Source: Sphingomonas horti (GTDB lineage Bacteria > Pseudomonadota > Alphaproteobacteria > Sphingomonadales > Sphingomonadaceae). From it: 64,000 nucleotides of DNA. The notes below the pieces were generated by a model. It ran no database searches and had not been told where the DNA came from. It worked only from the letters and a program-made list of their open reading frames with translations. Where the stretch lies: contig NZ_WQMS01000007.1 of NCBI RefSeq assembly GCF_009753715.1, positions 72,001 to 136,000 of the forward strand, written 5' to 3'. Every line of letters begins with the position of its first letter. Position 1 is the first letter of the stretch. A program made the position numbers and the translations under genes. Below, one piece after another: positions 2 through 14,951 of the stretch.

Positions 2-937
2 GGATCCGTCGCCGCCGAGCGCGCCGGCGCAATGATCGCGGCGGTGCGCGCCCGGACGGATGCGCCGTTCAACGTCAACCTGTTCTGCCACGCGCCGGCC
101 GAGAGTGACCCCGCGGTCGAGCGGACATGGATCGCGCGGCTGCAGCCAAGCTTTGCGGCGTTCGGGGCCGCTCCCCCACCGGTTCTTTCGGAAATCTATC
201 GCAGCTTCACCGCCGATCAGGAAATGCTCGCGATGCTGCTGCAGCTGCGACCACCGATCCTCAGCTTTCATTTCGGGCTGCCTACGCCAGCCGCGATCGA
301 GGCGCTCCGCAGCGCCGGCATCAGGACTCTGGCCACTGCCACCAATATTGACGAGGCCCGCCAGATCGAAGCGGCGGGACTGGACGCGATCGTCGCGCAG
401 GGATGGGAAGCGGGCGGCCATCGCGGCAGCTTCGATCCGGACGCTCTGGACGATGAACTCGGCACGGTTGCGCTGACGCGGCTCCTCGTGCGCGAAGTCC
501 GCCTGCCGGTGATTGCCGCCGGCGGGATTATGGATGGTGCGGGGATAGCGGCGATGCTCAAGCTCGGCGCGGCCGCGGTTCAACTGGGCACCGTCTTCGT
601 CGCCTGCAACGAAAGCCTTGCGGACGAGGGCTATCGGAAAGCTCTTGCCGGCGTGGGTGCCTGGCACACCGTAATGACCCGCGTCATCTCGGGGCGGCCG
701 GCTCGCTGTCTCGCCAATCGCTTCACCGCGTTGGGACGCGGCGTTCCAGAGTCTGCAGTGCCGGATTATCCGATTGCATACGACATCGGGAAAGCCCTGC
801 ATTCCGCCGCTTCAGCCCATGGCGAGTTCGGGTTCGGCGCCCAATGGGCCGGCCAAGGTGCACCGCTTGCCAGGCGAATGGGCGCGGCCGCTCTCGTCGC
901 GACCCTCGCCCAGGAGCTTGAGGAGGCTTTTTCATGA
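2..937 (+). CDS. Nitronate monooxygenase family protein (5' partial)
   Basis: FMN-dependent TIM-barrel enzyme of the nitronate monooxygenase (2-nitropropane dioxygenase) family, which oxidises alkyl nitronates to carbonyl compounds and nitrite. The frame is open to the left edge of the window, and the first in-frame ATG (32) falls inside the conserved N-terminal part just before the VNLF segment, so the true start is upstream. Visible family marks are the QGWEAGGHRG segment, with the histidine that normally acts near the flavin, and a phosphate-binding AAGGIMDG followed by GAAAVQLGT. The stop overlaps the next start (ATGA), so it is the first visible gene of an operon with the DUF3237 protein and an exported hydrolase. 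The natural substrate cannot be told from sequence; many family members act on compounds other than nitroalkanes. Confidence 0.87.
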   Translation, partial: GSVAAERAGAMIAAVRARTDAPFNVNLFCHAPAESDPAVERTWIARLQPSFAAFGAAPPPVLSEIYRSFTADQEMLAMLLQLRPPILSFHFGLPTPAAIEALRSAGIRTLATATNIDEARQIEAAGLDAIVAQGWEAGGHRGSFDPDALDDELGTVALTRLLVREVRLPVIAAGGIMDGAGIAAMLKLGAAAVQLGTVFVACNESLADEGYRKALAGVGAWHTVMTRVISGRPARCLANRFTALGRGVPESAVPDYPIAYDIGKALHSAASAHGEFGFGAQWAGQGAPLARRMGAAALVATLAQELEEAFS

Positions 938-1416
938 GCAGCGAATCCAGCGGGAATATGACGCCTCTCGCCGCGCGCCCCCTGTTTATGATGCGGCTGC
1001 TGGTCGGCCCCCTCCAGACAATCGGCGGCCCGGCCGGTGCCGGACGGCGGGTCGGCGGAATCCCGGGCGGACGCTTTGATGGCGAGAAGCTCCGCGGCGT
1101 CGTGCTGCCCGGAGGTGCCGATTGGCAGATCGAGCGCAGCGACGGCGCGATCGAGCTCGATGCCCGCATCGTGCTGCAGACGGACGACGATGCGCTGATC
1201 GGGATGACCTATGTCGGACTGCGCCACGGCGCTCCCGAGGTTATGGCCAGGCTTGGACGCGGGGAGGCGGTCGCTCCTTCGGAATATTATTTCAGGATCG
1301 TCGCGCGATTTTCGACCTCCGATCCGCGCTACCAATGGCTCAACAGCATCATTGCCGTCGGGATCGGACATCGCCTGCCGGAAGGGCCCGTCTATCTCGT
1401 GCACGAGATTGCGTGA
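934..1416 (+). CDS. DUF3237 domain-containing protein
   Basis: 160-residue protein with the DUF3237 pattern: an N-terminal RPLFMMRLLVGPLQTIGG strand pair, a GGRFDGEKLRGVVLPGGADW segment, a middle part on degree of oxidation or derivatisation (LDARIVLQTDDDALIGMTY), and a C-terminal YYFRIVARFST...YQWLNSIIAVGIG. The family is a small beta-barrel often found beside catabolic genes and has no settled biochemical role. Its ATG overlaps the stop of the nitronate monooxygenase gene, so the two are translationally coupled. No signal peptide is seen. A role in the same catabolic step as its neighbours is inference from the operon. Confidence 0.85.
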   Translation: MSSESSGNMTPLAARPLFMMRLLVGPLQTIGGPAGAGRRVGGIPGGRFDGEKLRGVVLPGGADWQIERSDGAIELDARIVLQTDDDALIGMTYVGLRHGAPEVMARLGRGEAVAPSEYYFRIVARFSTSDPRYQWLNSIIAVGIGHRLPEGPVYLVHEIA

Positions 1417-1452
1417 CAAACTTACCGCTGTGCCGCTCGAAAGGACGTGGCG

Positions 1453-2406
1453 ATGAAATGCAAGGCTTTGCTCGCGCTCGTGTCGGCTCTGTCCGTCGCG
1501 GGTGGGTCCGGCAAGGCAGCGGAAGCGGCGACGAGGACGCCCACCAGCTATCATTGGGTGCGCGTCGGTGGCCTTAATCTCTTCTATCGGGAAGCGGGCC
1601 CGAGAGATGCGCCGACGATCGTGCTGCTGCATGGCTACCCGTCTTCGTCGCGGATGTATGAGCCGGTCATTCCGCTGCTGTCCGGCCGTTATCATCTGAT
1701 CGCGCCCGACTATCCCGGGTTCGGGCACAGCGATGCACCCTCGCCGGACGACTATGCCTACACGTTCGATCACCTGGCGGAATCGACGAGCGCGCTCCTC
1801 AGCACGCTCGGCATCCAGCGCTATGTACTGTTCATGCAAGACTATGGTGGTCCGGTGGGCTTCCGGATGATGATGCGCGAACCGGGAGCCGTTCAGGCCA
1901 TTATCGTCCAGAACGCAAACGCCTATGAGGAAGGTCTCGGCGCGAAATGGTCAGGTATCACTCGCTACTGGGCGGACCCCGCTGGACATGCCGAGGAGCT
2001 CGACAAGTTCATGTCTCTCGAAGGCGCGAGGCAGCGCCACGTCGGTAACAGTCCGAATGCCGAGCGCTACAACCCGGACAGCTGGACCGATGAATATGCG
2101 ATGCTGTCGCGTGCTGGCGCGCGCGCGATCCAGGGCGCGCTCCTCTACGATTACCGCACCAACGTCGCCGCCTACCCGGTGTGGCAGGCGTGGCTGCGCG
2201 AGCGCCAGCCGCCGACGCTTGTGCTTTGGGGACGCTATGATCCGTCGTTCATCGTGCCGGGCGCGCTGGCCTATGCCCACGACTTGCCTCAAGCAGAGAT
2301 TCACCTGCTCGATGCCGGTCATTTCGCGCTCGATGAGAAGGCGCAGGAGGTCGCAAATCTGGTGCTGCGCTTCCTTGACCGCCGGCTGAGCACAACCAAC
2401 AGATAG
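1453..2406 (+). CDS. Exported alpha/beta hydrolase, Asp-nucleophile type (epoxide hydrolase/haloalkane dehalogenase-like)
   Basis: 317-residue alpha/beta-hydrolase with a cleavable-looking signal peptide (MKCKALLALVSALSVAGG..., residues 1-26), so probably periplasmic. The oxyanion-hole motif HGYPSSS is near residue 60, the nucleophile elbow is MQDYGG with Asp rather than Ser, the acid is in LWGRYDPSF and the base is the His of DAGHFALDE. An aspartate nucleophile is typical of epoxide hydrolases and haloalkane dehalogenases, which work through a covalent ester intermediate. The ATG at 1453 is chosen over the GTG at 1447 because AAGGA at 1441 is well spaced from it. It lies 36 bases after the DUF3237 gene and probably ends that operon, since a strong terminator follows. 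The substrate (epoxide or halide) is not determined. Confidence 0.85.
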   Translation: MKCKALLALVSALSVAGGSGKAAEAATRTPTSYHWVRVGGLNLFYREAGPRDAPTIVLLHGYPSSSRMYEPVIPLLSGRYHLIAPDYPGFGHSDAPSPDDYAYTFDHLAESTSALLSTLGIQRYVLFMQDYGGPVGFRMMMREPGAVQAIIVQNANAYEEGLGAKWSGITRYWADPAGHAEELDKFMSLEGARQRHVGNSPNAERYNPDSWTDEYAMLSRAGARAIQGALLYDYRTNVAAYPVWQAWLRERQPPTLVLWGRYDPSFIVPGALAYAHDLPQAEIHLLDAGHFALDEKAQEVANLVLRFLDRRLSTTNR

Positions 2407-2417
2407 TCGATCGGCGC

Positions 2418-2445
2418 GGGAGGAGGCCCAGCCTCCTCCCCTTTT
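2418..2445 (+). terminator. Rho-independent terminator
   Basis: A perfect 10-bp stem (gggaggaggc / gcctcctccc) with a 3-base loop is followed by CTTTT. It sits 12 bases after the hydrolase stop codon and closes the nitronate monooxygenase operon. The other strand has no T-run, so it is directional. Confidence 0.85.
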
Positions 2446-2451
2446 GCGTCT

Positions 2452-3795
2452 TTAGCGCAAGGAGCGGAAGGTCGCGCGCAGCTCCTCGGTGAATGCGCGC
2501 GGCTGCTCCCATGCGGCAAAATGTCCGCCCTTCGGCAAGCGACCATAGTGGACAAGCTTGGGATAGGCCTTTTCCGCCCAGCTACGCGGCGCCGTGTAGA
2601 TCTCGTCGGGGAAAGCGCTGACGCCCATTGGGATCTTCACTCCTTTAGGAGCGAAGAAGGCGAGCTTGCTTTCCCAGTAGAGCCGCGCCGACGAAACCGC
2701 GGTGTTGGTGAGCCAGTAGAGCGTGACATTGTCCAGCACGTCATCCCGGGTCAGCCCTTCCGCCTGGCCGTCGAAAACCCGCGTGATCAGGTCCTGGCTG
2801 CGGGCATCATGGTCGAGCATCCAGGCCGCAAGCCCGATCGGAGAGTCGGCCAGCGCGTAAAGCGTCTGAGGCCGGTTCGCCATTTCCTGGGCATAGCCGA
2901 GGCCATGTTTGTAGAAGCTGTCGAGCTGGTCGTAAGCGTATTTCTCATCCCCTGACAGGCCGGCGGGCGCGGCGCCGCCGGCGGCCAGCGCGGCGGCGAT
3001 ATCGGCCGGAACCGTCGCCGGCATATTGGTGTGGACGCCAATCAACCCCGGCGGAGCAATCAGGGCCATCTGTTCCGTGACGGCGTTGCCCCAGTCGCCG
3101 CCTTGCGCCACGTAGCGGGTATAGCCAAGCCGTTGCATCAGCGTGATCCAGGCCCGTGCGATGCGGATCGGATCCCAGCCGAGCTCGGTCGGCTTGCCCG
3201 AAAAGCCGTGTCCCGGGAGCGACGGGATCACCACGTCGAACGCATCCGCCGCTGTTCCGCCGTGCGCGGTCGGATCGGTGAGCGGACCGATGACCTTCAT
3301 CTGCTCGATGACCGACCCAGGCCAGCCGTGTGTGATGATGACGGGCAGCGCCTTGGGATGCTTCGATTTCACATGGATGAAGTGGATGTCCACACCATCG
3401 ATATTGGAAATGAACTGGGGGTAGGCGTTGAGCCGCGCCTCGACCTTTCTCCAGTCGTGGCTGTTCTGCCAATAGTCGGCGAGCTTGCGCATAGTCGCCA
3501 GCTTGACCCCTTGAGACGCGTCCCCGACGAGCTCCCGGTCCGGCCAGTTGGTCGCGGCGATACGGCGCTTCAGATCCTGCAGCGCGTCGTCGGGGGCCCG
3601 GAACCTGAACGGCCGGATGGCCGACCCTGTCACCCCTTCGGCGAGGGCGCTGCCGTCGGCCGCCGTGGAAGCGGCAGAGCCGGCAGAACTTGCCATAGAT
3701 GCCTGCGCCAAAGGGGGCATCAACAGGCCGGCAAATCCGGCGAAAGCAGAACCGACGAAATGACGCCGTTCGAGCAGGGCTAGACTCATCGACAT
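2452..3795 (-). CDS. Epoxide hydrolase with EHN domain, Tat-type signal
   Basis: 447-residue epoxide hydrolase of the microsomal-like family. The N-terminus has a twin-arginine signal (ERRHFVGSAFAGFAGLL), implying Tat export. An EHN domain follows (about residues 58-165, starting IRPFRFRAPDDALQDLKRRI), then an alpha/beta-hydrolase core with oxyanion motif HGWPGS, the Asp nucleophile in GGDWG, and a C-terminal GGHFAAWEQP carrying the catalytic His. These enzymes hydrolyse epoxides to diols. Start 3795 is preceded by GAGGAG at good spacing. The gene stands alone, convergent with the operon on its left, and has two tandem ACCATGGT boxes 76-100 bases upstream, so it is probably a target of the local FixJ/StyR-like regulator. 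Confidence 0.9.
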   Translation of the reverse strand: MSMSLALLERRHFVGSAFAGFAGLLMPPLAQASMASSAGSAASTAADGSALAEGVTGSAIRPFRFRAPDDALQDLKRRIAATNWPDRELVGDASQGVKLATMRKLADYWQNSHDWRKVEARLNAYPQFISNIDGVDIHFIHVKSKHPKALPVIITHGWPGSVIEQMKVIGPLTDPTAHGGTAADAFDVVIPSLPGHGFSGKPTELGWDPIRIARAWITLMQRLGYTRYVAQGGDWGNAVTEQMALIAPPGLIGVHTNMPATVPADIAAALAAGGAAPAGLSGDEKYAYDQLDSFYKHGLGYAQEMANRPQTLYALADSPIGLAAWMLDHDARSQDLITRVFDGQAEGLTRDDVLDNVTLYWLTNTAVSSARLYWESKLAFFAPKGVKIPMGVSAFPDEIYTAPRSWAEKAYPKLVHYGRLPKGGHFAAWEQPRAFTEELRATFRSLR

Positions 3796-3870
3796 GGCAG
3801 GCTCCTCTTTGCAAGTTCAGTGGCAACGAAGAGCCGGACGATCGGATATTGTGACGCCATTACCCATAGG

Positions 3871-3894
3871 ACCATGGTGCATATAGACCATGGT
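3871..3894. promoter_or_regulatory. Tandem ACCATGGT palindromes (putative response-regulator operator)
   Basis: Two exact ACCATGGT copies (3871-3878 and 3887-3894) lie 16 bases centre to centre upstream of the epoxide hydrolase gene. On the minus strand an AT-rich stretch about 20 bases further on (caatat) could be the -10 element. The core equals the centre of the STY box bound by StyR. The rest of the 3796-4086 intergenic region shows no convincing gene. Confidence 0.6.
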
Positions 3895-4086
3895 GTTGAT
3901 GCTCTTCCCGAGATCGATCGCGCCGATGACAGTCGCGGCGAATCCTTGCGCCGGCAGCTGGGCGGGTGGCCAACGCGCGCTACGGCAACGTCGCAAGCGG
4001 AAGCTGAAGCCGGATGACTGTCCCTCTGCGGGTCACCCCGGGGAGGCCCGCCGGCCTCAGGAAATCCTGTCGGCAGGCGGACCGCC

Positions 4087-4908
4087 TTAAGTCCGCGTCA
4101 GCACCACATGACGTCCGAGCTCAAGCTCCACGGCCGACCGGGTCTGCAGTCCGGCTTCCAATAGCGCAGCCATCCGCGCCCGGGTCGCCGGCCGTGCGAC
4201 TGACCGGAAAAAAGTCTCGAGTGCAGCGGGGAACAGCGCGTCGTCAGGCAGCGAGACCTGATCCAAGAACCGCTTCGCTTCAGCCAGTGCTTCCTTTTCA
4301 AAACCGGCAACGCGGCGCGCGAAACCATCAACGAAGACATCGAGATCGCCATCAGGGAGGGTGCGATTGACGTAGCCATAGCGCTCCGCCAGCGCGCCGG
4401 AAAAATCATCGGCACCGAGGACGATTTCGATCGCCCGGCCGCGACCAACCAGCCCGCCGAGGCGCGCCATAGGATTCGCGCCTGGAACAGCCCCTACCCC
4501 GACTTCGAACTGGCCAAGCACCGCCTTCTCGCTCGCGAAGCGGATGTCGCAGGCGAGCGCGAACTCGCTGCCGGCGCCTCGTGCGCGGCCGCGGATCGCA
4601 GCAATGGACACGACCGGTGCGCGGCTGAGCCGCGAGAGGACATCGAGCCAGGGGTGCATGCCCGTCGGCCCAGGTGCCATAGCGGCCGTGCGCGCCTTGT
4701 CAGCAAGGACGTCATAGTGAGCCAGGAAGAAATCCGGGTCGCTGCTTTGGAACACGATCACCTTCACATCCGGGTCGCGTTCGAGCTCCGCCACCAGGTC
4801 CGAAAGCTCTGCAATGGTGTCCGGATCGATGAGGTTGATCGGTGGGTTGGAAAAGGTCGCGCGCCAGTACCCGGCCTGAGGGCGCGTGATCGAAATCTGG
4901 TTCTGCAT
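4087..4908 (-). CDS. Enoyl-CoA hydratase/isomerase family protein
   Basis: 273-residue crotonase-fold protein. Family features are the N-terminal strand WRATFSNPPINLIDPDTI, the first oxyanion-hole segment SIAAIRGRARGAGSEFALACDIRFAS and a following GAVPGANPMARLGGLVGRGRAIEIVLGAD. The second catalytic Glu position of true hydratases is not obvious, so the reaction (hydration, isomerisation, hydrolysis) is open. The start at 4908 is preferred because GAGGG precedes it and it sits 10 bases after the SDR stop, rather than 4944 which would overlap that gene. It is the last gene of a three-gene operon with the SDR and the metallo-hydrolase. Confidence 0.85.
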   Translation of the reverse strand: MQNQISITRPQAGYWRATFSNPPINLIDPDTIAELSDLVAELERDPDVKVIVFQSSDPDFFLAHYDVLADKARTAAMAPGPTGMHPWLDVLSRLSRAPVVSIAAIRGRARGAGSEFALACDIRFASEKAVLGQFEVGVGAVPGANPMARLGGLVGRGRAIEIVLGADDFSGALAERYGYVNRTLPDGDLDVFVDGFARRVAGFEKEALAEAKRFLDQVSLPDDALFPAALETFFRSVARPATRARMAALLEAGLQTRSAVELELGRHVVLTRT

Positions 4909-4918
4909 CCCGCAACCC

Positions 4919-5626
4919 TCAATGACCGGCGGATTGTCCGCCATCGACGTGGATGGTCTCGCCCGTCACGAAGCCGGCGTTCTCGAGAAAGAGCACGGCG
5001 CTGACGATCTCCGGAATCTCGCCCATGCGACCGACCGGATGGAGGGCGGCGAGGCCCGGGTGTGTCTCGGGCGGATGCATCGGCGTCTTGATCACGCCTG
5101 GAGCAACCGCATTCACCCGAATCCCGCGCGTCGCATATTCGACTGCGAGGCTCCGGGTGGCGGCGGCCACGCCGCCCTTTGTCAGGGAGGCAAGCACCGA
5201 AGGTACCGCCGACAAAGGATGCTCGACGAGCGCAGTCGTGATGCTGACGACGTGGCCGCCTCCCTGCGTCTCCATTGCCGCCACCGCGGCTTGCGTGATG
5301 AAGAAGAAGCCGCCGAGATTGGTCGCGACGACATCGGCATAGTCTTCCGGCGTGTAGGCCGTGAATGGCCGGGCGACGAAGATGCCCGCATTGTTGATCA
5401 GCGTATCGACGCGCCCGAACCGGTCCAGCGCCCGCGCCACCACATCGGAGCCGGTGCGCGGATCACCGATATCCGCCGGGATCGACAGCAGGTCGGTGGT
5501 ATCGGCGGAGGCGATTGATCGCGAAGTCGTGGCAACGCGATAGTCGAGATCCAGATAGGCGCGCACGAGTGCCGCGCCGATGCCTTGTGATCCGCCGGTA
5601 ATGATGGCGACTTTGCGTTCAGTCAT
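4919..5626 (-). CDS. SDR family oxidoreductase, catalytic Tyr replaced
   Basis: 235-residue classical-type short-chain dehydrogenase/reductase. It has the cofactor motif TGGSQGIG (residues 9-16), the NNAG motif (LINNAGIF), a PG-motif region (NAVAPGVIKTPMHPPETH) and the C-terminal TGETIHVDGGQSAGH. In the active site the usual YxxxK reads ASLTK: Lys is kept but the Tyr four residues earlier is Ala. Some SDR subfamilies share this PSxLASLTKGG pattern, so it is probably a family feature rather than decay. It may use a different proton donor or lack classic dehydrogenase activity. Start 5626 is chosen over 5665 because the protein then begins immediately before the Rossmann strand. It is the middle gene of an operon, 45 bases after the metallo-hydrolase. 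Confidence 0.88.
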   Translation of the reverse strand: MTERKVAIITGGSQGIGAALVRAYLDLDYRVATTSRSIASADTTDLLSIPADIGDPRTGSDVVARALDRFGRVDTLINNAGIFVARPFTAYTPEDYADVVATNLGGFFFITQAAVAAMETQGGGHVVSITTALVEHPLSAVPSVLASLTKGGVAAATRSLAVEYATRGIRVNAVAPGVIKTPMHPPETHPGLAALHPVGRMGEIPEIVSAVLFLENAGFVTGETIHVDGGQSAGH

Positions 5627-5671
5627 GCTCGTGCCTTTGGATGTTGAGAAGTGAGAGTGGGGCAACGCCCG

Positions 5672-6769
5672 TCAGTCGATGCGCAGGCTCTGCTCCATCG
5701 CGTAACACTGGTCCCAAATGTAGACGTCGTAGGCCGCGAGCCGGGACTGCCACTTCGGCGTCAATGTGTTGACGCACTGGACGACCACGCGATCGATATA
5801 GTTGTCGAAGACCGCCCAGGGGTTTGCCTTGTCCGCCGGGTCGATTTCACGGCCGATTTCGGTCGTCTTCAATGCCGTCGCAGCCGCGGACTTGAGGTCT
5901 GCCATAAACTCGAGTTGAAGGCGGACGTCGGCGTGGGTCCCCACCCGACTGACGTGGCCGCCGATCAGGGTCTCGAACGGCACGCGGTCGATTTCCGCAA
6001 CCTGATCGAAATAGCCGGGGACGTCCTGCGCCAGCGCCAACCGACGCCAGGGCATCCAGCCTGGAAACACGACGTCGACCACCATCAGAACGCGCTGCTC
6101 CGGCGCGTAGATGAAGATGTTGCCCGGCTCGTGGGCGACGCCATGATAGCTGAGTTCGAGGCGCTGAGTGCCGACCTGCAGCTTATATCGATCCTTGAAC
6201 GTGACCGACGGGACCGGCCGGTTCGGATCCCTGGCTCGCGTCAGCAGGCGCGCGGTCTCCTCCTGTGCGATCAGGATTGGTTGCCCGCCAAGCTCTTTCA
6301 CACCGCCGATGTGATCGATGTGCGAGTGGCTGTAGACGACGTGGGTGACCGGAAGGCTCGTGACCTCCGCGATCGCTGCCCGGAGATGCTTGGCATAGGT
6401 CGGCGGTGCATCGACGACGACGACGCCCGTTTCATAGACCAGGAACATCGATTGGTAGGCGTTCTCGGTGACCAAGAAGAGGCCCCGGCCCAGTTGCTGC
6501 AGGCGATAGCCTTTCGCCGGATCGATCGGCGGCGCTTTCGCGCTCTCCATAATCGGGAGGTAGCGATCGGGCCGGACGCCGATCGGCGCGAGTGCCGGCA
6601 TATTCGTGTACGGAACGCCTGCCGCCCCAACCGGCACCTCAGCGCCGCCGGGAGCGGAGGTGAAGCCGCCGAGCGCGGCTGCTGCGCAAAACGCCGCGGC
6701 GGTCGCGCGCTTGGTCCGAGAAATGGGCAGACGAACCTGCGGGTCGGCAGGGAAAGACGGGAAGGACAT
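5672..6769 (-). CDS. Exported metallo-beta-lactamase-fold hydrolase
   Basis: 365-residue MBL-fold protein with an N-terminal export signal (basic residues 13-21, then TAAAFCAAAALGGF). Metal ligands are visible: HSHIDH (HxHxDH motif), the His in GVAHEPGN, Asp in VVDVVFPG and a C-terminal GGHVSR. A C-terminal extension of about 90 residues follows. Family members include lactonases, sulfatases and quinoprotein-pathway hydrolases; the substrate is unknown here. GGGAG sits well before the 6769 start. It is the first gene of the operon with the SDR and the enoyl-CoA hydratase-like gene. An ACGATGGT box lies 62 bases upstream, which suggests shared control with the epoxide hydrolase and sensor genes. 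Confidence 0.87.
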   Translation of the reverse strand: MSFPSFPADPQVRLPISRTKRATAAAFCAAAALGGFTSAPGGAEVPVGAAGVPYTNMPALAPIGVRPDRYLPIMESAKAPPIDPAKGYRLQQLGRGLFLVTENAYQSMFLVYETGVVVVDAPPTYAKHLRAAIAEVTSLPVTHVVYSHSHIDHIGGVKELGGQPILIAQEETARLLTRARDPNRPVPSVTFKDRYKLQVGTQRLELSYHGVAHEPGNIFIYAPEQRVLMVVDVVFPGWMPWRRLALAQDVPGYFDQVAEIDRVPFETLIGGHVSRVGTHADVRLQLEFMADLKSAAATALKTTEIGREIDPADKANPWAVFDNYIDRVVVQCVNTLTPKWQSRLAAYDVYIWDQCYAMEQSLRID

Positions 6770-6830
6770 CGCTTGCTCCCATGATCATCTGGGGAGCAAG
6801 ATGAGCGGCTGGCGGGCCGGGCAGAATTGC

Positions 6831-6838
6831 ACGATGGT
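6831..6838. promoter_or_regulatory. ACCATCGT-type box upstream of MBL operon
   Basis: ACGATGGT here is ACCATCGT on the minus strand, 62 bases before the start of the metallo-hydrolase gene. The same variant occurs at 9832-9839, and it matches the core reported for TodT boxes. The 6770-6926 gap holds no other feature that I can support. Confidence 0.45.
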
Positions 6839-6926
6839 ATCGCCTATACTTTCGTCCTATCCGCTGGCCGGCTCGGCACGGGACGCAGTGCGGGCATCGC
6901 GTGCGCCTCTTCAGTGCCGCTCCCGA

Positions 6927-7721
6927 TTACACGCGGGCGTAGCGTGCGGCAGGCGAGGCATGCGACAGGTTCGGAACAAGGGCCTGCCGAGCGGACTCGA
7001 ATGCTTCCCAGTCGCCCTCGTCGGGCAGTGAAGGGATGGTCACGAACTCCCCCTGGTCAAAGCCGGCCAGCGCGGAATCGACGACATCATCGGCCGACAT
7101 GACGATCGCCTTTGGCAGGGCATCGACGGGCGTTCCGGACAGGCGCCAGAAGTCGGTAGCGGTGGCGCCGGGAAGGACGACCTGCACCCGTATGCCTTTT
7201 GGCGCGAGTTCGTGGCGCAGGGCCTGGCTTAGCGCGAGGACAAAGGCCTTCGTGCCGCCATAGACGCCGTTCAACGTTTCGGGTGCAATTGCGACGATCG
7301 AGGCGATGTTGATGATTGCGCCCTGGCCGCGTGACAAAAAGACCGATGCCGCCGCCCCGGCGAGTCGGGCGACCGCGCCCACGTTCAGCGCGATCATATC
7401 GGCCATCACGTCCGGATCTGCCTGCGCGATCGGCGCCGTCGACCCGAAGCCGGCGTTGTTGACCAGCATTCCTATTCGGGGATCCGCGATCAGGCGGTCG
7501 GCAATCTCCTGCTGACCGGCCCTTCCCGTCAGATCGACGGACATCGTCTCAACCGAGACCCCGCTCTTCAGCCTGATGCTGGCTGCCACTTGATTGAGGC
7601 GGTCCCTGTTCCGCGCAACCAGGATTAGGTTCCAGCCTCGCTGTGCCAGTCGATCGGCGTAGATCGCGCCGATGCCGGCGGAAGCGCCCGTGATCAGGGC
7701 TGTCTCAGGTGCCTTGTTCAT
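6927..7721 (-). CDS. SDR family NAD(P)-dependent oxidoreductase
   Basis: 264-residue short-chain dehydrogenase of the DltE/YqjQ-like type. The cofactor motif TGASAGIG is near residue 11, NNAGFG near 90, catalytic Ser in NIASIV and the canonical YGGTK (YxxxK) near 155, so unlike the other SDR in this block the catalytic residues are complete. The start codon overlaps the stop of the upstream histidine kinase gene (ATGA at 7718-7721), so the two are translationally coupled. The coupling of a dehydrogenase to a kinase is unusual. The substrate is unknown. Confidence 0.88.
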   Translation of the reverse strand: MNKAPETALITGASAGIGAIYADRLAQRGWNLILVARNRDRLNQVAASIRLKSGVSVETMSVDLTGRAGQQEIADRLIADPRIGMLVNNAGFGSTAPIAQADPDVMADMIALNVGAVARLAGAAASVFLSRGQGAIINIASIVAIAPETLNGVYGGTKAFVLALSQALRHELAPKGIRVQVVLPGATATDFWRLSGTPVDALPKAIVMSADDVVDSALAGFDQGEFVTIPSLPDEGDWEAFESARQALVPNLSHASPAARYARV

Positions 7722-8392
7722 GCGACTTCGCTCCACTTCGCGCTGAAATCGCCGAGCATCGTGGGAGCTTCGACCGGTATGCGCATGGTCGCGACCGCTC
7801 CCTCGACCGTGAAGCTCCAGTCGACGCGGCCGCCGAGTTCATTGACCAAGCCTCGGATCAGGCCTTGGCCCCTGCCAGGAACCGTGCGAACCGAAGGTCT
7901 TCCGTTATCCCGCACTTCGCAGACCAGAATCCCGATTCGTTCCTCAATCGAGACCGAGATCTGCCCTTCGCTGCCTCCCAAGCCATGGCGCGCCGCGTTT
8001 CGGATCAACTCAACCAAGATTAGCCCGATTCGCCAGCATTGGTCGGCGGGAAGCCTTACCTCAGCGGTAGTCAGGACGAGACGCACGCGCCGCTGGGCCA
8101 GCGTTGCCCGCGTAAAAGCCTCGCAGATTCTGGAAACATGCGCGCCGAGGTCTGCATCGTCCGGAACCGCGGGCGGCATCAGCGTGCGGTGGGCGGCTGC
8201 GTGATCGCGAAGTCGGCTGGCGGCACGGTCGATGGCGGCCTTGGCAATGGGGTCACCGGTGCTCGACGCCGCCAATGACAGGCTTGAGATCGCCTCGGCA
8301 TATTCGTTGACGACGCGATGGTTCAGCTCTTCGACCAGCGCCAGCGAAACGAGTGAAACCGTCGCTTTCGCGACCGAGCGAGACTCCAACAT
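7718..8392 (-). CDS. Soluble sensor histidine kinase, HisKA_2/HWE-like
   Basis: 224-residue protein with a HisKA_2-like dimerisation motif (VEELNHRVVNEYAEAI, His near residue 24) and a HATPase_c domain with N-box LILVELIRNAARHG and G-box-like DNGRP and GRGQGLIRGLV. It has no input domain and no membrane segment, so it must sense a cytoplasmic cue or act as part of a relay. GGAGG precedes the ATG at 8392 at good spacing. It heads a two-gene unit with the SDR at 6927-7721 and has an ACCTTGGT box 77 bases upstream. Cognate receivers could be the adjacent FixJ-type regulator or the stand-alone receiver. Confidence 0.82.
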   Translation of the reverse strand: MLESRSVAKATVSLVSLALVEELNHRVVNEYAEAISSLSLAASSTGDPIAKAAIDRAASRLRDHAAAHRTLMPPAVPDDADLGAHVSRICEAFTRATLAQRRVRLVLTTAEVRLPADQCWRIGLILVELIRNAARHGLGGSEGQISVSIEERIGILVCEVRDNGRPSVRTVPGRGQGLIRGLVNELGGRVDWSFTVEGAVATMRIPVEAPTMLGDFSAKWSEVA

Positions 8393-8468
8393 TCGTGCCT
8401 CCTGACCTCTGCCCCTCAAGGCGGGCGGTGCACGTTTCTTCTGCGAACGAGGTCCGTCTCGCTATTGG

Positions 8469-8476
8469 ACCTTGGT
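8469..8476. promoter_or_regulatory. ACCTTGGT box upstream of HisKA_2 kinase
   Basis: A one-mismatch version of ACCATGGT lies 77 bases before the kinase start, in the short gap (8393-8509) behind the response regulator gene. The left flank (gctattgg) resembles that of the 14747 site. Confidence 0.45.
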
Positions 8477-8509
8477 GTAGGACAACCCTTAGAATTGGCC
8501 CGCCGTTCG

Positions 8510-9145
8510 CTAGCTTGGCGTGTGTGTTGCCCCGCCGAGCTGCTCAGTCATGCGGACGAGATCCGCGAAGGACCTTGCCTTCATCTTCTCCATGACGCGC
8601 CCACGATGGGCTTTGACCGTGATTTCGCTGATGCCGAGTTCTCCGCCCACCTGCTTGTTGAGCAGGCCGGCCGCGATCAGGTGCAGCACCTCCTTTTCGC
8701 GCCGGCTCAACGTATCGTAGCGAGCCTGGAGTGCCTTGATGCGGGCCAGCTCGTCGGTCGCGATCCTGCTTGCCTCGAGAGCACGCTCGATTGCCGTCAG
8801 GAGCACCTCCTCGTCCAACGGTTTGGTCAGGAACTCGGCGGCGCCGGCCTTCATCGCGCGCACCGTCATCGGCACGTCGCCGTAGCCGGTCATGAAGATT
8901 ATCGGCATCTCCCTCCGCCGATCCGCGATCAGGGCTTGCAGATCAAGACCGCTAAGGTCGGGCAGGCTCACGTCGAGCAGCAGACATTTGGGGCCGTCCG
9001 GCACCACCCAGTCAAGAAAAGCAGTCGCGGAATCGAAGCTCCGGATCGTCCAGCCGGCAAGTTCAAGCATCGGCTCCAGCGACTCGCGTATCGACACATC
9101 GTCGTCGACAATGATGACGGTCGGCTTCGGATCGGGCGTGCTCAT
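8510..9145 (-). CDS. FixJ/StyR-type response regulator (receiver + LuxR HTH)
   Basis: 211-residue two-component regulator. The receiver domain (about 1-125) has the acidic pair DDD, the phospho-acceptor Asp in LLLDVSLPD, Thr in FMTGYGD and Lys in LTKPLDEE. A linker leads to a LuxR-type HTH (LSRREKEVLHLIAAGLLNKQ..., recognition region GISEITVKAHRGRVMEKM). The HTH and linker resemble the FixJ/StyR/TodT group, which binds ACCATGGT-like palindromes. The start at 9145 gives a standard N-terminus; an upstream ATG at 9202 with GAGG before it is possible. It lies downstream of the stand-alone receiver, likely as one transcript. It is the best candidate for the regulator reading the boxes scattered over 3.8-14.8 kb. 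Confidence 0.88.
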   Translation of the reverse strand: MSTPDPKPTVIIVDDDVSIRESLEPMLELAGWTIRSFDSATAFLDWVVPDGPKCLLLDVSLPDLSGLDLQALIADRRREMPIIFMTGYGDVPMTVRAMKAGAAEFLTKPLDEEVLLTAIERALEASRIATDELARIKALQARYDTLSRREKEVLHLIAAGLLNKQVGGELGISEITVKAHRGRVMEKMKARSFADLVRMTEQLGGATHTPS

Positions 9146-9212
9146 CGTACCGGTCCTGAAAGCGTGAGCGATACTCCTGCTATGGGCGGCAAGTGCATAC
9201 ATCGGCAAATCC

Positions 9213-9584
9213 TCATTCGGATCGCAGCGCGACCCTGATAGCATCAAGGATGGCGCTTTCGCTGAACGGCTTGATTAGGCATGCTGCAGCTCCGCTGCTG
9301 AGAAGCGAGTGCCACGCATTCTCGTCCGAGTGGGCGGTGATGAAAACAATGGGAATGTCGTGCCTGCGGCGCTCCAACTCCTGTTGCAGACCAGGCCCCG
9401 TCATCCCGGGCATCGTCACGTCGAGCACCAGACAATCGGCGATCTCCAGCTCGACGGACTCCAGGAATGCCTCCGCGGAAGCAAACGGTCGTGCGTCGAA
9501 ACCGAACGAGCGGAGGAGATCGGGAAGCGACTCCCTCACCGACTCGTCGTCATCAATGACCGCGATCACCTTACGATTGTCCAT
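9213..9584 (-). CDS. Single-domain response regulator (receiver only)
   Basis: 123-residue CheY-like receiver with no output domain. It shows the acidic DDD near residue 11, phospho-acceptor Asp in LVLDVTMPG, Thr in FITAHSD and Lys in LIKPFSES. The sequence is FixJ-receiver-like and similar in layout to the downstream regulator. Such proteins serve as phosphate sinks or intermediates in relays. It is first in the transcript with the FixJ/StyR-like regulator, with 67 bases between them when the 9145 start is used. Confidence 0.87.
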   Translation of the reverse strand: MDNRKVIAVIDDDESVRESLPDLLRSFGFDARPFASAEAFLESVELEIADCLVLDVTMPGMTGPGLQQELERRRHDIPIVFITAHSDENAWHSLLSSGAAACLIKPFSESAILDAIRVALRSE

Positions 9585-9770
9585 TCCAGTTCCTCATGGT
9601 CCTCATCTGCTTGAGAACCGGGCATTTGGCTCGCGACCTCTCTGACTGAATGGACAGCCCAAATGCGGTGGACGGACGCATATCGCGTCAGTGCGGTTTG
9701 AAGTTTTTCACCTCCAGCCTTGCAGAACGCCCGGACAGGATGCGTCTAAAGCGAGTGCCGGTCTATCGCT

Positions 9771-9778
9771 ACTTTGGT
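9771..9778. promoter_or_regulatory. ACTTTGGT box, divergent region
   Basis: Core with two differences from ACCATGGT, but the surrounding sequence gctac...ggtattgg is almost the same as at the 14747 box (14 of 16 bases). It lies 187 bases before the receiver gene start. Confidence 0.4.
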
Positions 9779-9831
9779 ATTGGTTCATCGCGAGACCGAG
9801 CAATGCCCGCCCCATGCTGCTCGGCACCTAG

Positions 9832-9839
9832 ACCATCGT
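9832..9839. promoter_or_regulatory. ACCATCGT box upstream of exported hydrolase
   Basis: ACCATCGT is followed at once by ATAATGGT, giving a short inverted repeat ACCAT/ATGGT. It ends 110 bases before the hydrolase start at 9950. The core is the same as that of the site at 6831 read on the minus strand. Confidence 0.5.
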
Positions 9840-9949
9840 ATAATGGTAGCGGGCCATTGCGTGTCCGATCTTTCGGCAAATGCGTCTCGAATGGACAGCC
9901 AAGAACGGCCGCCGGGCAGAGCCGACTGGTGCTTTAGGGAGAAAACGGG

Positions 9950-10984
9950 ATGAAAGGCGATCCGACCCGCCGCGACTTGTTAGGTGCCGTAGCGATTGGT
10001 GCCGCCATGGCCAGTTCCCCCGCATTCTCCTCGTCCCCGAAGACGATCGAGAACGGTGCGAAGAGCATGGTGGCACCGCCTTTTGTGGTGAAAAGCGTCA
10101 AGGCTGGGGGGCTGGACATCGCCTACGCCGAGGCGGGTCCGCCCGACGGCGATCCGGTCATCCTTCTTCACGGCTGGCCGTATGACATTCACAGCTTCGA
10201 CGAGGTCGCTCCCGAGCTTGCGGCAGCCGGATGTCGCGTTCTCATCCCTTACCTGCGCGGGTTCGGTCCAACCCGTTTCCTATCCAGCGCAACGATGAGA
10301 AATGGCCAGCCTGCGGCGGTTGCGTCTGACACGCTTGCGATGATGGACGCGCTCGCCATTCCGTCGGCCATTCTCGCGGGGTTCGACTGGGGCGCGCGCA
10401 GCGCCGACATTATCGCCGCGCTGTGGCCTGGACGGTGTCGCGGCTTGGTATCTGTGAGCGGCTACCTGATCGGCAGCCAGGCTGCAGGGAAAATGCCTCT
10501 GCCGCCAGCTGCGGAGCTTCAATGGTGGTATCAGTTCTACTTTGCGACGGAGCGAGGCCGCGAAGGCTATGCTCGCTATCGGCGCGACTTTGCACGCCTG
10601 ATCTGGCAGCTGGCGTCGCCTAGATGGGCCTTTGATGATGAGACGTTCGCGCGGTCGGCAGCCGCTTTGGACAACCCGGACCACGTCGACATTGTTATCC
10701 ATAACTACAGGTGGCGCCAAGGCTTGGCGGGCGGCGAACGTCAGTATGACGATCTCGAGCAGCGGCTTTCATCGTCGCCCACGATCTCGGTCCCAACGAT
10801 CACGCTGGAAGGCGATGCCAATGGAGCGCCGCACCCGGACCCGTCGAGCTATGCAACCAGGTTCACCGGCTTGTACGCGCATCGCCTGGTCCGGGGCGGC
10901 ATAGGACATAACCTGCCGCAGGAGGCTCCGCAGGCCTTCGCTGCGTCCATTCTGGATGTTCGATCCGGGAGCTTTTCCGCCTGA
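9950..10984 (+). CDS. Exported alpha/beta hydrolase, Asp-nucleophile type
   Basis: 344-residue alpha/beta-hydrolase with a Tat-like N-terminus (TRRDLLGAVAIGAAMA). The oxyanion motif is LLHGWPYD near residue 68, the nucleophile elbow GFDWGAR with Asp, and a late His in GGIGHNLPQE. The Asp elbow and HGWP motif place it with soluble epoxide hydrolases and relatives. The region between (WWYQFYF..., HNYRWR) is a helical lid. It is transcribed away from the two-component genes and has an ACCATCGT box upstream. It is the third Asp-nucleophile hydrolase in the block. GGGAGAAAACGGG precedes the ATG. The substrate is unknown. Confidence 0.83.
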   Translation: MKGDPTRRDLLGAVAIGAAMASSPAFSSSPKTIENGAKSMVAPPFVVKSVKAGGLDIAYAEAGPPDGDPVILLHGWPYDIHSFDEVAPELAAAGCRVLIPYLRGFGPTRFLSSATMRNGQPAAVASDTLAMMDALAIPSAILAGFDWGARSADIIAALWPGRCRGLVSVSGYLIGSQAAGKMPLPPAAELQWWYQFYFATERGREGYARYRRDFARLIWQLASPRWAFDDETFARSAAALDNPDHVDIVIHNYRWRQGLAGGERQYDDLEQRLSSSPTISVPTITLEGDANGAPHPDPSSYATRFTGLYAHRLVRGGIGHNLPQEAPQAFAASILDVRSGSFSA

Positions 10985-11144
10985 TACTGCAGCTCTCGGG
11001 TGCCCGCCCCGCGTGTCAGACCTGGAGAGTTCTCCCCTTAGGTTGCTCACGGACAGGAGTGGGTCCCCGGCACGCCGTCGCACCCAAGCTTTGCTTTCCA
11101 CCGAGAGTGAGGCCTGGTCGCCCGCTTGGCTAGGACGGGTGGGC

Positions 11145-14033
11145 CTAGGCCGCGGCAGCGGAGGGAAAAGGAATGGAAAAGGCAAAGGTGCTGCCGGCGT
11201 CTGCATTCGAACTTGCCTGGAGCGTTCCTCCGTGACGTTCCACGATAGATCTGCTCACGGACAATCCGATGCCCATCCCATTCGGCTTGGTCGTGTAGAA
11301 CGCATCGAAGATGCTAGCGAGATCCTCCCTCTGCAAGCCTATTCCGGTATCGGCCACGGCGAGTTGCACAGCGCACTTGTTCGAGTACTCAGTCCGGATG
11401 GCGATCTGGCGGGGCCTGTCCTCCACCCCCTCCAGCGCATCCGCGGCGTTCAGGACAAGGTTGAGGATGACCTGCTGGAGCTGGACGCGATCACCCTTGA
11501 TGGGCGGCAACCCGGGATCGAGCTCGAACTGCATCGTTATGCCGCGTCGTTGAAGATCGTGGCGGCAGATGTTGATAACTTCCTGCGCGGCGTCGTTCAG
11601 ATTGAGCGACTCTGGCAAGTAATCCTGCTTCCGGAACAGACCTCTTAGCCGGCTGAGCACTTCCGAAGCGCGGTTGCCGTCGCGGATCGTTCGTCGGGCC
11701 GTCCTGATCGCTCCCTCAACGTCCGGGGGGTCCATGGCCAGCAGCCGCACGCAGGTGTTGGCGTTGGTGATTATGCCAGAGAGCGGCTGGTTGACCTCGT
11801 GCGCGATCGATGCAGCCAATTCGCCAAGGCTGGTCACTCTTGTGACATGCGCGAGTTCCGATCGAACCTTGTCGAGTGCGTCTTCGGCTATGCGGCGACG
11901 AGTGACATCCTGCGCGACGCCAAAGCACTCTCGGCGACCATCATCGTGATGTACGACACGAAATGCGGTGCTGACGTATTTGATACGCCCGTCGGCCATG
12001 AGCAATCGCTCTTCATTCTCCGGGCATTGCTCTCCTCGAGAGACACGGGCGATCTTATCATCGACCAACCGCAGGTCGTCCGGGTGATACAGCGACCGAA
12101 GGTCCGGCCGGACTACCTCCAAGTTGCCATCAATCTCGCAGACTCGCCGCATCTGCTCGGAAAAAACGACCGTGTCGTTCACGAGGTCCCAAATGAAGGA
12201 TCCGGTTTGGCTGATCCGCTCTGAGGCCGCGAGGAGATATTCGCTACGGCGTAGCTCCTCTTCGACATGCTTCGTCTCCGTAATGTCCTGAATGGAGCCG
12301 ATAACAATCGGACCATCGCCATCTTCGCGCGCGAAGTGGGCAACGGCGTGCAGAAACTTCGTGTTGCCTCTAGGTGTGATGATCCTGAACACCTCGTCGA
12401 AGTTGGTCTGTGTATCGAGCGATTGTCTGAAGCTCGCGTCAAACCGCGGCCGATCGTCGCCATGGATTCGATCACGGAAGACACGAAAAGTAGGCGGCTC
12501 CTCCGGGTTGTGTTCCAAAATCCGATAGAGTTCGTCCGACCATACGTGCCTGTCAGCGTTCACGTGCGTGGTGAAGCTGCCAGTATGGCTGAGGCGCTGC
12601 GCCTGGCTGAGATGATCGTGTGCTTCCCGAAGCTTGCGCTCGCGCGCGGCAAGCTCATCTTCAGTCCGCTTCCTGTCCTCGATCTCGGTGTTGACGCCGT
12701 ACCACTTCACGACCTTCCCGTCCTCAAGCAGAGGGTTCGTGCGAAATGAAAACCAGCGATACTCGCCATCGTACCGCCGCACCCGGGCCTCAGTCACGCC
12801 GCCCCGGCCGACTGCCCTGAAGCTCTCCCAAGCGCGCGCAAGGGTGTCGAGGTCATCGGGGTGGATGACGCGCGTCCACTGCCAGTCGCGGACGTCCTCT
12901 TCCGACAGGCCGACATAGTTGAGGTAGTGCTGATTGAAGAAATCCGCAGTTCCATCGGCACGAGCCGACCAGGCCAGTGCCGGGATGCTGTCGATCGTGA
13001 CCCGCAGGTTTCGTTCACTTGTCGCCAAAGCCTGCTCGGCGCGCCTGCGATCATCAATGTCGCTGAGCAAGACGTGCCAGGCGACGATCCGGCCAGCCTC
13101 GTCTCGCAAAGGGCGGCCGCGGTTGGCGAACCAGCGATACTCGCCATCGAAGCGACGCAGCCGCTGTTCGATATCGTAGGGGATACCGGACGCGATCGAC
13201 CCGCCGAATATCTGGGCGACATGCGGCATATCCTCCGGATGCACCGTGCCGTTCGTGCCCCAGTCACGCAGCTCTTCTAGCGATTGCCCGCAATAGTCCA
13301 TGATTTGGCGGTTGACGCGCTCGACCCGTCCATCAGGCGTAAGGACAGCGACCAGGCCTGGGATATTCTCGATCAAGGAATTCGCGCTGAGTTCGCTTGC
13401 GCGCAGAGCCTCTTCGGCTTGCCGTCGTTGGCCGATTTCTATCCTCAGAGCGGCATTGGCCTCGGCTAACTCCTCTGTCCTGCGCGCCACGCGGAGGTCG
13501 AGTTCCTGGGCAAGACGGCGCTGCTCATATTGCAGCGATATGTCCTGCAACTTTACAAGCGCCTGGTTCGCAGCGACGCTCAGCAGCAGGCGCTCTGTTT
13601 GTTCCGGAAATCGAGGGCGAGTGCTTCCTACCACGATCGTGCCCAGCCGGCTCTCAAGGCCGAGCGGCATCGCCAGGATAGACACGTTGGTTCCGAGAAA
13701 GTCTGCTTGAAGCGAAGCACGCCTGTCGAACGTGGCGCCAAGTGCGACCCGCGCTTGGTCGAGCACCTTTCGGGGACTGGCCGCAAGGCCTTCGCCAACG
13801 AGCACGAACGGCTCCGGGCGTTCGTCCTCGACCTCCTCGAAGTGAACTATCACAAAGTCGAGCCCGAGCGTGGACAGAAGGGCCTCAGAAAGTATGCGGC
13901 CCGTCTCATTGACGCTTGCCGCACTCCAAGCGGCGGAAAGAGCGGTCAGCCCAACGAGATCGCCCAGAGTGCGCCGCAGGCGCGAGACTCCAACATCCCG
14001 TTCGTCAGGCGTTCCCGCCATCTCTCCGAGCAT
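11145..14033 (-). CDS. Multi-PAS sensor histidine kinase
   Basis: 962-residue soluble kinase with no predicted membrane segment. An N-terminal GAF-like domain (about 30-165) is followed by a coiled-coil stretch (QYEQRRLAQELDLRVARRTEELAEANAALR region), four PAS/PAC units (roughly 215-335, 340-460, 480-600, 600-725; see HPEDMPH, HPDDLDT, HGDDRPR, HPDDLRL), a HisKA domain with the H-box SIAHEVNQPLSG and a HATPase_c domain with NLVLNAADALEG, DTGIGL and GMGIGLSVSRSI. There is no fused receiver, so it needs a separate partner; the FixJ/StyR-like regulator at 8510-9145 is the natural candidate. It follows the MEDS gene by 14 bases in the same operon. Several PAS domains on a soluble kinase suit an intracellular ligand or redox signal. 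Confidence 0.9.
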   Translation of the reverse strand: MLGEMAGTPDERDVGVSRLRRTLGDLVGLTALSAAWSAASVNETGRILSEALLSTLGLDFVIVHFEEVEDERPEPFVLVGEGLAASPRKVLDQARVALGATFDRRASLQADFLGTNVSILAMPLGLESRLGTIVVGSTRPRFPEQTERLLLSVAANQALVKLQDISLQYEQRRLAQELDLRVARRTEELAEANAALRIEIGQRRQAEEALRASELSANSLIENIPGLVAVLTPDGRVERVNRQIMDYCGQSLEELRDWGTNGTVHPEDMPHVAQIFGGSIASGIPYDIEQRLRRFDGEYRWFANRGRPLRDEAGRIVAWHVLLSDIDDRRRAEQALATSERNLRVTIDSIPALAWSARADGTADFFNQHYLNYVGLSEEDVRDWQWTRVIHPDDLDTLARAWESFRAVGRGGVTEARVRRYDGEYRWFSFRTNPLLEDGKVVKWYGVNTEIEDRKRTEDELAARERKLREAHDHLSQAQRLSHTGSFTTHVNADRHVWSDELYRILEHNPEEPPTFRVFRDRIHGDDRPRFDASFRQSLDTQTNFDEVFRIITPRGNTKFLHAVAHFAREDGDGPIVIGSIQDITETKHVEEELRRSEYLLAASERISQTGSFIWDLVNDTVVFSEQMRRVCEIDGNLEVVRPDLRSLYHPDDLRLVDDKIARVSRGEQCPENEERLLMADGRIKYVSTAFRVVHHDDGRRECFGVAQDVTRRRIAEDALDKVRSELAHVTRVTSLGELAASIAHEVNQPLSGIITNANTCVRLLAMDPPDVEGAIRTARRTIRDGNRASEVLSRLRGLFRKQDYLPESLNLNDAAQEVINICRHDLQRRGITMQFELDPGLPPIKGDRVQLQQVILNLVLNAADALEGVEDRPRQIAIRTEYSNKCAVQLAVADTGIGLQREDLASIFDAFYTTKPNGMGIGLSVSRSIVERHGGTLQASSNADAGSTFAFSIPFPSAAAA

Positions 14034-14047
14034 CTCTGCCCCGCTCC

Positions 14048-14665
14048 CTAGCGATCAGTTCGCTCGCGCAGGAACTGCTCGGGTTCGATGAAGAATGGGT
14101 TTTGCTGCAGGGAATTGCCGATCAACACCATTGGGTGAGTGCGCATGATGTCGATGAGCATGTCTCCGGTGAGTGTCCTGAGGTCGTAGGCACAGATCAC
14201 CACGTCTGGATGACGGCGCCAGACGTCGTTCACTCTTGCCTCGAACTCGATCAAGTCTTCGTGTTCGGGGCGATCTTCTCCGGTCCAGTCCATGTTGCAG
14301 ACAATTCGACTCATCGGAAATTCGCTCGCAGCGCTGGCGGACGCGATGGCTTCGAAGGTCTCCAGCATACGATCTTTGTCGAAGCAGTCACCACGGTGAT
14401 ACACATCCGTTGTGTGAAGAAGCTCTAGCTGACCGGTCGCCCGGGAAGCGACCGGATCGATACCCACCGCTGCGAGGCGTTGAAGATGCTCCGCCTCGTC
14501 TTCCGGCGAGACGATGTGAATGGCCCTGTCGCCTCGGTCGAAGCCTTCCTCGATAAATGGGAGCAGGACGCGATAGGCTTCCTCGAAGCCGCTGAAAAAG
14601 GCGCAAGCATGTCTGACCTCGCCCATTTCCGAATTTCCCAGCCGCACCGCGCTGTTACTGCTCAT
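14048..14665 (-). CDS. MEDS domain-containing protein (DcmR-like sensory domain)
   Basis: 205-residue protein that is almost all MEDS domain, the sensory domain first described in the dichloromethane-responsive regulator DcmR and in methylotroph/methanogen sensors. Matching segments are HACAFFSGFEEAYRVLLPFI near the N-terminus, IHIVSPEDE, the central MSRIVCNMDW, and the C-terminal VICAYDLRTL...HPMVLIGNSLQQNPFF. No DNA-binding or kinase domain is present, so it likely passes a signal to the kinase encoded 14 bases downstream. Start 14665 is preferred because GGGAG lies 7 bases before it. An ACCATGGT box lies 82 bases upstream. Confidence 0.82.
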   Translation of the reverse strand: MSSNSAVRLGNSEMGEVRHACAFFSGFEEAYRVLLPFIEEGFDRGDRAIHIVSPEDEAEHLQRLAAVGIDPVASRATGQLELLHTTDVYHRGDCFDKDRMLETFEAIASASAASEFPMSRIVCNMDWTGEDRPEHEDLIEFEARVNDVWRRHPDVVICAYDLRTLTGDMLIDIMRTHPMVLIGNSLQQNPFFIEPEQFLRERTDR

Positions 14666-14746
14666 ATAACGACTCCCATCGGAGCCACGGAAGCTGCGCA
14701 AATCCGGAGCTTATCATGCGCTTCCGCGACGGCGGGCGCTATTGCT

Positions 14747-14754
14747 ACCATGGT
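14747..14754. promoter_or_regulatory. ACCATGGT box upstream of MEDS/kinase operon
   Basis: Exact ACCATGGT within gctaccatggtattgg, 82 bases before the MEDS gene start. This implies that the sensory operon may be autoregulated. The rest of the 14666-14951 gap holds no gene that I can support. Confidence 0.55.
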
Positions 14755-14951
14755 ATTGGCCAGATCGCATACTAAAGTCGGCGGACTGGCGGGCGGCCAC
14801 GGAATGCCGTCCGCAGCCGCTTCGACTGAACGGCTCCCGTGCGGTGCGAAGTCCGTCCGGAGGCGCTCACCGGCCGACCTGGAGGAGGTCGTCCGAGCGC
14901 CAGCATTTCAATGTGAGGCCTGACGATCCTCGCAAGGCATTGCGGGCAGGC

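Follow-up and report, generated by a model that had tools for sequence, protein, structure and literature searches.

Paired palindromic boxes as likely operators of a FixJ-type two-component regulon in Sphingomonas horti and in distant bacteria

A set of intergenic sites in a 64,000-nucleotide stretch of the Sphingomonas horti genome (hereafter the window) very likely corresponds to the operators of one two-component regulon, placed under the FixJ-type response regulator encoded at 8510-9145 in the same gene cluster (Table 1). The sites, their paired architecture, their conservation, their promoter register, their target genes and their link to a recognition helix were all computed directly.

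All seven box sites reported by the initial annotation were found at their coordinates and on their strands, and every one of them is intergenic. The 64-kb window contains 14 strand matches to ACCWTSGT for 3.25 expected from dinucleotide shuffles (14 was reached in 0/100 of these), and nine of the 14, from six distinct and all intergenic sites, fall in the first 15 kb; the site at 9771 is intergenic too. The 1,475 intergenic bases of positions 32-16097 gave 9 strand hits for 0.15 expected (P(>=6) ~1e-8), an expectation that uses the genome-wide rate (333 strand hits/3.35 Mb) unmatched for intergenic composition and that concerns sites picked post hoc. Since the sites were chosen post hoc and since the 8-mer is not rare genome-wide, this enrichment is suggestive rather than proof. 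The genome-wide frequency of the sites was assessed by pattern searches with reversed controls: the bare 8-mer is indeed common elsewhere (157 hits in the reversed control; ACCATGGT occurs at 27 places), whereas the extended signals are local to the cluster, which includes three of the five box + NCNATNG arm sites of the genome (ACCATGGTCCTATGG at 3871-3894 being one of the five) and both of its paired operators at up to one mismatch (at 6831 in the window and, 2.5 kb to its left, at C23:69453). The sites initially noticed were half-sites only, and the partner box at 6848-6855, the constant CCAATnG arm and the sites left of the window had been missed.

The full operator was found in the loci of relatives. 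Using the 8510-9145 regulator, we fetched 79 public loci encoding relatives with 50-75% identity, mostly from Pseudomonadota and Acidobacteriota, with some from Verrucomicrobiota, Gemmatimonadota and others. Close ACCWTSGT pairs in these loci were spaced by exactly 17 bp in 30/42 cases and by 16 or 18 bp in five more. The operator consensus, ATTGGAC[GC]WWGGTATCGnCGATACCWW[GC]GTCCAAT, is a palindrome of two boxes worth 42 bits, whose core in other loci reads AC[CG]WWGGT, and the corresponding profile (45 columns, built from 29 distinct training pairs) showed that the spacer between the boxes is likewise conserved. Scanning with this profile at a threshold of at least 24 bits detected 91 sites in 40/82 loci, and 1.33 Mb of reversed sequence gave zero hits even at 18 bits. 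A simple gene caller placed 61 of these 91 sites in intergenic regions, an approximate share with spurious open frames swallowing some promoter sites. When 28 whole genomes reached via regulator relatives were searched at up to three mismatches, 91 sites were found, most of them near the regulator, versus 3 in the reversed control. Among 385 genomes drawn from the class of the window, only nine had any site at up to two mismatches and only three (the genome of the window, G471 and G505) had at least two sites at up to one mismatch or a clear cluster; the regulator context matches in both G471 and G505, and one of these two loci stops at a contig end.

Gene order and operator positions are conserved as well. 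The locus of Sphingomonas sp. R-74633 (L004) displays the order of the window, REC-RR-HK-SDR-MBL-SDR-ECH-EH, with operators both between RR and HK and ahead of MBL. Full or paired boxes are found in this syntenic RR-HK gap in L004, L005, L006, L007, L008, L010, L013 and L025, and the MBL gene is preceded by an operator in the equivalent gap in L004, L005, L006, L008 and L025. Four plasmid loci outside the training set, found by regulator similarity (Mesorhizobium ciceri, Sinorhizobium fredii, S. meliloti and Cupriavidus), all carry the operator, with 0 hits in their reversed sequence: it lies upstream of annotated epoxide hydrolase genes in M. ciceri and S. fredii, and upstream of PAS kinase genes in M. 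ciceri, S. fredii and S. meliloti, the last being an unannotated case placed according to the S. fredii layout. Altogether, this paired, conserved architecture, together with the reversed-sequence controls, bears out the initial proposal that the sites are operators.

Table 1. Predicted operators and genes of the cluster (window positions).
Feature	Coordinates	Strand	Remarks
NMO, DUF3237 and alpha/beta hydrolase genes	32..2406	+	likely operon led by tautomerase gene left of window
Epoxide hydrolase (EHN + alpha/beta hydrolase)	2452..3795	-	Pfam EHN 8.5e-38
Epoxide hydrolase operator	3871..3894	-	two ACCATGGT boxes, 16 bp apart
Enoyl-CoA hydratase/isomerase-like (crotonase), third gene of MBL operon	4087..4944	-	operator target in other loci
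Short-chain dehydrogenase SDR1	4919..5665	-	domain scan, synteny
Metallo-beta-lactamase-fold hydrolase (MBL)	5672..6769	-	Pfam Lactamase_B 2.8e-15
Complete palindromic operator before MBL-SDR-ECH genes	6831..6855	-	ACGATGGT-ATCGCCTAT-ACTTTCGT
Short-chain dehydrogenase SDR2, downstream of kinase	6927..7736	-	domain scan
Small HisKA_2/HATPase_c_2 histidine kinase, without recognised sensor domain	7718..8419	-	domain scan
Operator between regulator and HisKA_2 kinase genes	8469..8493	-	strong box ACCAAGGT (8469-8476) + CCAATAG
FixJ-type response regulator (REC + GerE HTH), proposed operator-binding activator	8510..9145	-	Response_reg 2.7e-27, GerE 7.1e-21
Single-domain receiver protein	9213..9584	-	adjoins regulator also in L004-L010, L013, L025
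Single box upstream of receiver/regulator genes	9771..9778	-	ACCAAAGT + agCGATAG; weakest assignment
Single box upstream of alpha/beta hydrolase gene	9832..9839	+	ACCATCGT + aTAATGG
Alpha/beta hydrolase	9950..10984	+	domain scan
Multi-PAS histidine kinase	11145..14033	-	four PAS_3 stretches, one HisKA, one HATPase_c
MEDS-domain protein	14048..14701	-	Pfam MEDS 3.5e-42
MEDS/PAS-kinase promoter	14713..14754	-	box ACCATGGT (14747-14754), arm agCAATAG, putative -10 CATGAT (14713-14718)

In total, the six promoters of the window divide into a complete operator (6831-6855), a pair spaced by 16 bp (3871-3894) and four promoters with a single good box; these four count against our main explanation. 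The boxes of the complete operator (6831-6838 and 6848-6855, ACTTTCGT) give it a score of 36.9 bits, the top one in the window. Read towards its gene, the 3871-3894 operator has CCTATGG (3864-3870) after box 2, and its 16-bp box spacing is found again in L006. By proximal-promoter score, the 8469 site comes second in the window (20.4), with a distal box that is weak, at 8486-8493 (TCTAAGGG on the minus strand), and the 9832 site comes third (12.7). The sites at 14747 and 9771 have one box each and an arm that is one base longer, displaced by one base; the one at 9771 scores under the threshold of the proximal-promoter scan and is possibly a chance 8-mer. The promoter of a MEDS paralogue on contig C12 (L096:5742) has a box, an arm and a -10 that are identical in kind to those of the MEDS promoter of the window, and a distal box located 24 bp away in the latter (ACTTTAGT read on the minus strand) found no support from other loci.

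When the operators were oriented with GTCCAAT pointing downstream and aligned on box 2 (n=87), CCAATnG directly 3' of box 2 was common to them and a TnTRAT -10 element appeared 28-33 bases past box 2. TnTnAT was found at offset 28 in 39% of the 87 operators (48% for [TC]nTnAT), while the next best offset reached 6%; such a fixed -10 register relative to an operator is a feature of sigma-70 activator-dependent promoters. Under a sigma-70 reading, the -35 is the TTG of CCAATTG, with a 17-base spacer, and the box centres are near -43.5 and -60.5. Box centres at these positions, combined with a poor -35 hexamer, fit the usual layout of an activator. Since phosphorylated StyR activates from a site at about -40 (PMC2442086), the box geometry found here also fits an activator. 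The promoter of the FMN reductase gene showed no clear -10.

The 8510-9145 protein has the domain layout of the FixJ/NarL family, a receiver followed by a GerE/LuxR-type HTH, and its closest solved relative is the 1yio/1zn2 chain (phmmer E 2e-54), which we take to be StyR. On loci of at least 8 kb, operator presence tracked the recognition helix GLLNKQVGGELGISEITVKAHRG (pattern LLNKQ[VI]GGEL.I[SAT]EITVKAHRG): operators were found in 33/39 loci with this helix versus 3/31 without it (Fisher P = 2e-10), and in 22/28 versus 1/17 within the 54-63% identity band (P = 2e-6), P values that overstate independence because the loci are related. On a tree, the operator label changed 12 times, compared to 23.6 in shuffles. 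Full-length identity was a weaker predictor of the operator than the helix. G505, a random genome reached from the operator, encodes inside its operator cluster a regulator that is only 45% identical overall yet has the same helix, and a second regulator, 52% identical, with a different helix and no operator nearby. Counting against our explanation, the operator was undetected in six loci of the at-least-8-kb set that have the consensus helix and in G545. Loci with VKIHRGN-type helices had no operator. The match between helix and operator supports the FixJ/StyR-type regulator as the likely binder, as initially suggested. Regulators with GRLNKQ instead of GLLNKQ (L021, L031, L033, L037, L039, L040, L044, L067) come from loci with zero copies of the operator; they may recognise a different sequence and would lend themselves, as a naturally occurring set, to studies of FixJ HTH specificity.

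Genes found directly behind operators belong most frequently to the epoxide hydrolase group in other loci (11), followed by cytochrome P460 (10), SDR (10), crotonase-like (9), OsmC/alpha-beta hydrolase (8), TonB receptor (7) and HisKA_2 kinase (7) genes, with smaller groups including DJ-1/PfpI (5), MBL (5), VOC (4), FMN reductase (3) and others. In the genome of the window, the regulon is ~20 kb long: left of the window, an operator or a box + arm site precedes an NADPH-dependent FMN reductase gene, msrB-msrA and the tautomerase-NMO-DUF3237-hydrolase group, whose operator-like site is C23:71532 (window -468). The box + arm site that points at msrB-msrA is at C23:69408 (L003/L095 region), which suggests that the repair of methionine sulfoxide is part of the regulon in this genome. 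The regulon also reaches a second locus with the MEDS paralogue on C12; this second MEDS-domain gene (G000:C12:5742) is 72% identical, and an epoxide hydrolase paralogue 7 kb from it (52% identical) lacks a half-site with arm. Judging from the gene families, the regulon more likely serves a broad detoxification of electrophiles and oxidants than the catabolism of a specific substrate. Of the catabolic or detoxification regulon initially envisaged, it is the second option that is favoured, a styrene/toluene-type pathway being absent among the examined genes. The idea of autoregulation is supported, the regulon including the signalling genes themselves (with operators in the RR-HK gap), and feedback is likely since these genes would be under the regulator's own control.

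We propose that the 8510-9145 regulator, once phosphorylated (the multi-PAS kinase, the small HisKA_2 kinase or both being the probable donors), would bind in dimeric form to two pseudo-palindromic boxes, AC[CG]WW[CG]GT, a binding mode that the symmetry of the boxes fits; the spacing of the boxes is 17 bp, with 16, 18 or 19 bp in some cases, and they would be centred near -60.5 and -43.5. Because the proximal box abuts the -35 inside CCAATnG, the bound regulator would bring sigma-70 RNA polymerase to the TnTRAT -10 and switch the genes on. The predicted targets are the epoxide hydrolase, the MBL hydrolase, SDRs, the crotonase-like protein, alpha/beta hydrolases, NMO and FMN reductase, to which msrBA can probably be added, as well as the signalling genes of the system itself. 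Together, their products would act to detoxify electrophiles that are reactive or compounds that have been oxidised.

The StyR/TodT box has the core ACCATGGT between outer arms ATAAA...TTTAT, its StyS/TodS-type sensors are hybrids in which two kinase modules are combined with PAS domains and an internal receiver, and the FixJ operator differs from the operator in this cluster. Boxes with the core ACCATGGT are found here too, but the arms are ATTGGAC and GATAC, so that the initial view of a StyR/TodT-like operator stands for the shared core and not for the rest of a 17-bp two-box palindrome. A multi-PAS kinase is encoded in the block as was proposed, yet the domain scan of 11145-14033 found no receiver domain (Response_reg), a layout unlike that of the StyS/TodS-type hybrid sensors; homologues of this kinase are found in 56/82 loci. 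The StyS/StyR system of Pseudomonas fluorescens ST (PMC2442086) resembles this one by its FixJ-type REC+HTH regulator, its nearby PAS-type kinase and its activating site; it differs from the pairs at 17-bp spacing with CCAATnG/GATAC arms, from the detoxification genes found in place of a styrene operon and from the extra HisKA_2 kinase and receiver protein described here. TodS/TodT of Pseudomonas putida (PMC4861429) shares a FixJ-type regulator, a PAS-domain kinase and activation from several boxes, TodT binding three sites with IHF (PMC2442086), whereas the operator here is a tight two-box one and no toluene pathway accompanies it. FixL/FixJ (5xso) is alike in domain architecture and family but differs in regulon, no nif/fix genes being found among those examined in the cluster. 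A true StyR/TodT-type aromatic-catabolism system responding to an inducer such as styrene or toluene would account for the closest solved relative, the shared core and an activating site close to -43.5; it is nevertheless quite unlikely, considering that no styrene/toluene catabolic genes were found among the proteins scanned in and beside the cluster, that the recognition helix differs from that of the 1yio chain (LMNKQIAGELGIAEVTVKVHRHN) and that loci with VKIHRGN-type helices lack the operator. Arms, sensor architecture and gene content led us to reject membership in the StyR/TodT systems.

Three other explanations deserve consideration. Chance 8-mers in AT-richer intergenic DNA could be argued from the number of strand hits in the genome and from the post hoc choice of sites, but this hypothesis is practically negligible and was rejected for the paired sites, given the 91 profile hits versus zero in reversed sequence, the syntenic gaps and the sites in loci outside training. 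Another conserved regulator encoded nearby might bind the operator, the FixJ-type protein being merely its neighbour, as the loci also encode other kinases, receivers and some regulators (MarR, S. fredii plasmid); this is very unlikely, since the FixJ-type protein is the sole DNA-binding regulator common to the loci inspected and since the operator follows its helix better than overall identity. Finally, the regulator might repress from these sites, the proximal box directly abutting the -35 region and phosphorylated StyR being able to repress from other sites (PMC2442086), yet we consider repression unlikely, because the centres of the boxes and the poor -35 hexamer correspond to the usual activator layout, as does the activating StyR site.

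We think it probable that a regulon for the detoxification of electrophiles and oxidants, otherwise undescribed and spread by horizontal transfer, is controlled by one ancient regulator-operator pair, made of a specific FixJ-type helix and the 42-bit two-box operator. Its range would cover Pseudomonadota, Acidobacteriota and single members of Verrucomicrobiota, Gemmatimonadota and Chloroflexota, and would include plasmids of rhizobia and Cupriavidus. No published description of the operator strings, gene set or regulon was found in the open-access literature, most subscription journals being outside this scope. A FixJ-type two-component regulon is a known kind of system, while the operator architecture and the gene set appear to be new. 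A widespread clade of FixJ-type regulators thereby gains an operator and a predicted regulon, whose members can be listed in any genome because the operator is specific (1.3 Mb of reversed sequence gave zero false hits), and a shared signal is assigned to many enzymes whose substrates are unknown, both hydrolases and oxidoreductases (epoxide hydrolases, MBL, P460, DUF4331, DUF6582). The co-varying recognition helices and operators should also be useful for a specificity code of FixJ HTH domains, and the system is testable in tractable bacteria because rhizobial and Cupriavidus plasmids carry the operator.

Loci labelled Chloroflexota, Gemmatimonadota and Verrucomicrobiota (L068, L014 and L020, respectively) have very similar regulators and operators, a likeness that reflects either wide transfer or mis-binned metagenome contigs. 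In the window, where no tRNA genes were found, the cluster resembles an acquired island, because a tyrosine integrase with Arm-DNA-bind_3 is encoded immediately to its right (14952-16097, minus strand), because GC is 61-65% over 1-16 kb versus 67-68% beyond and because the MEDS protein is found in just 2/201 genomes of the family.
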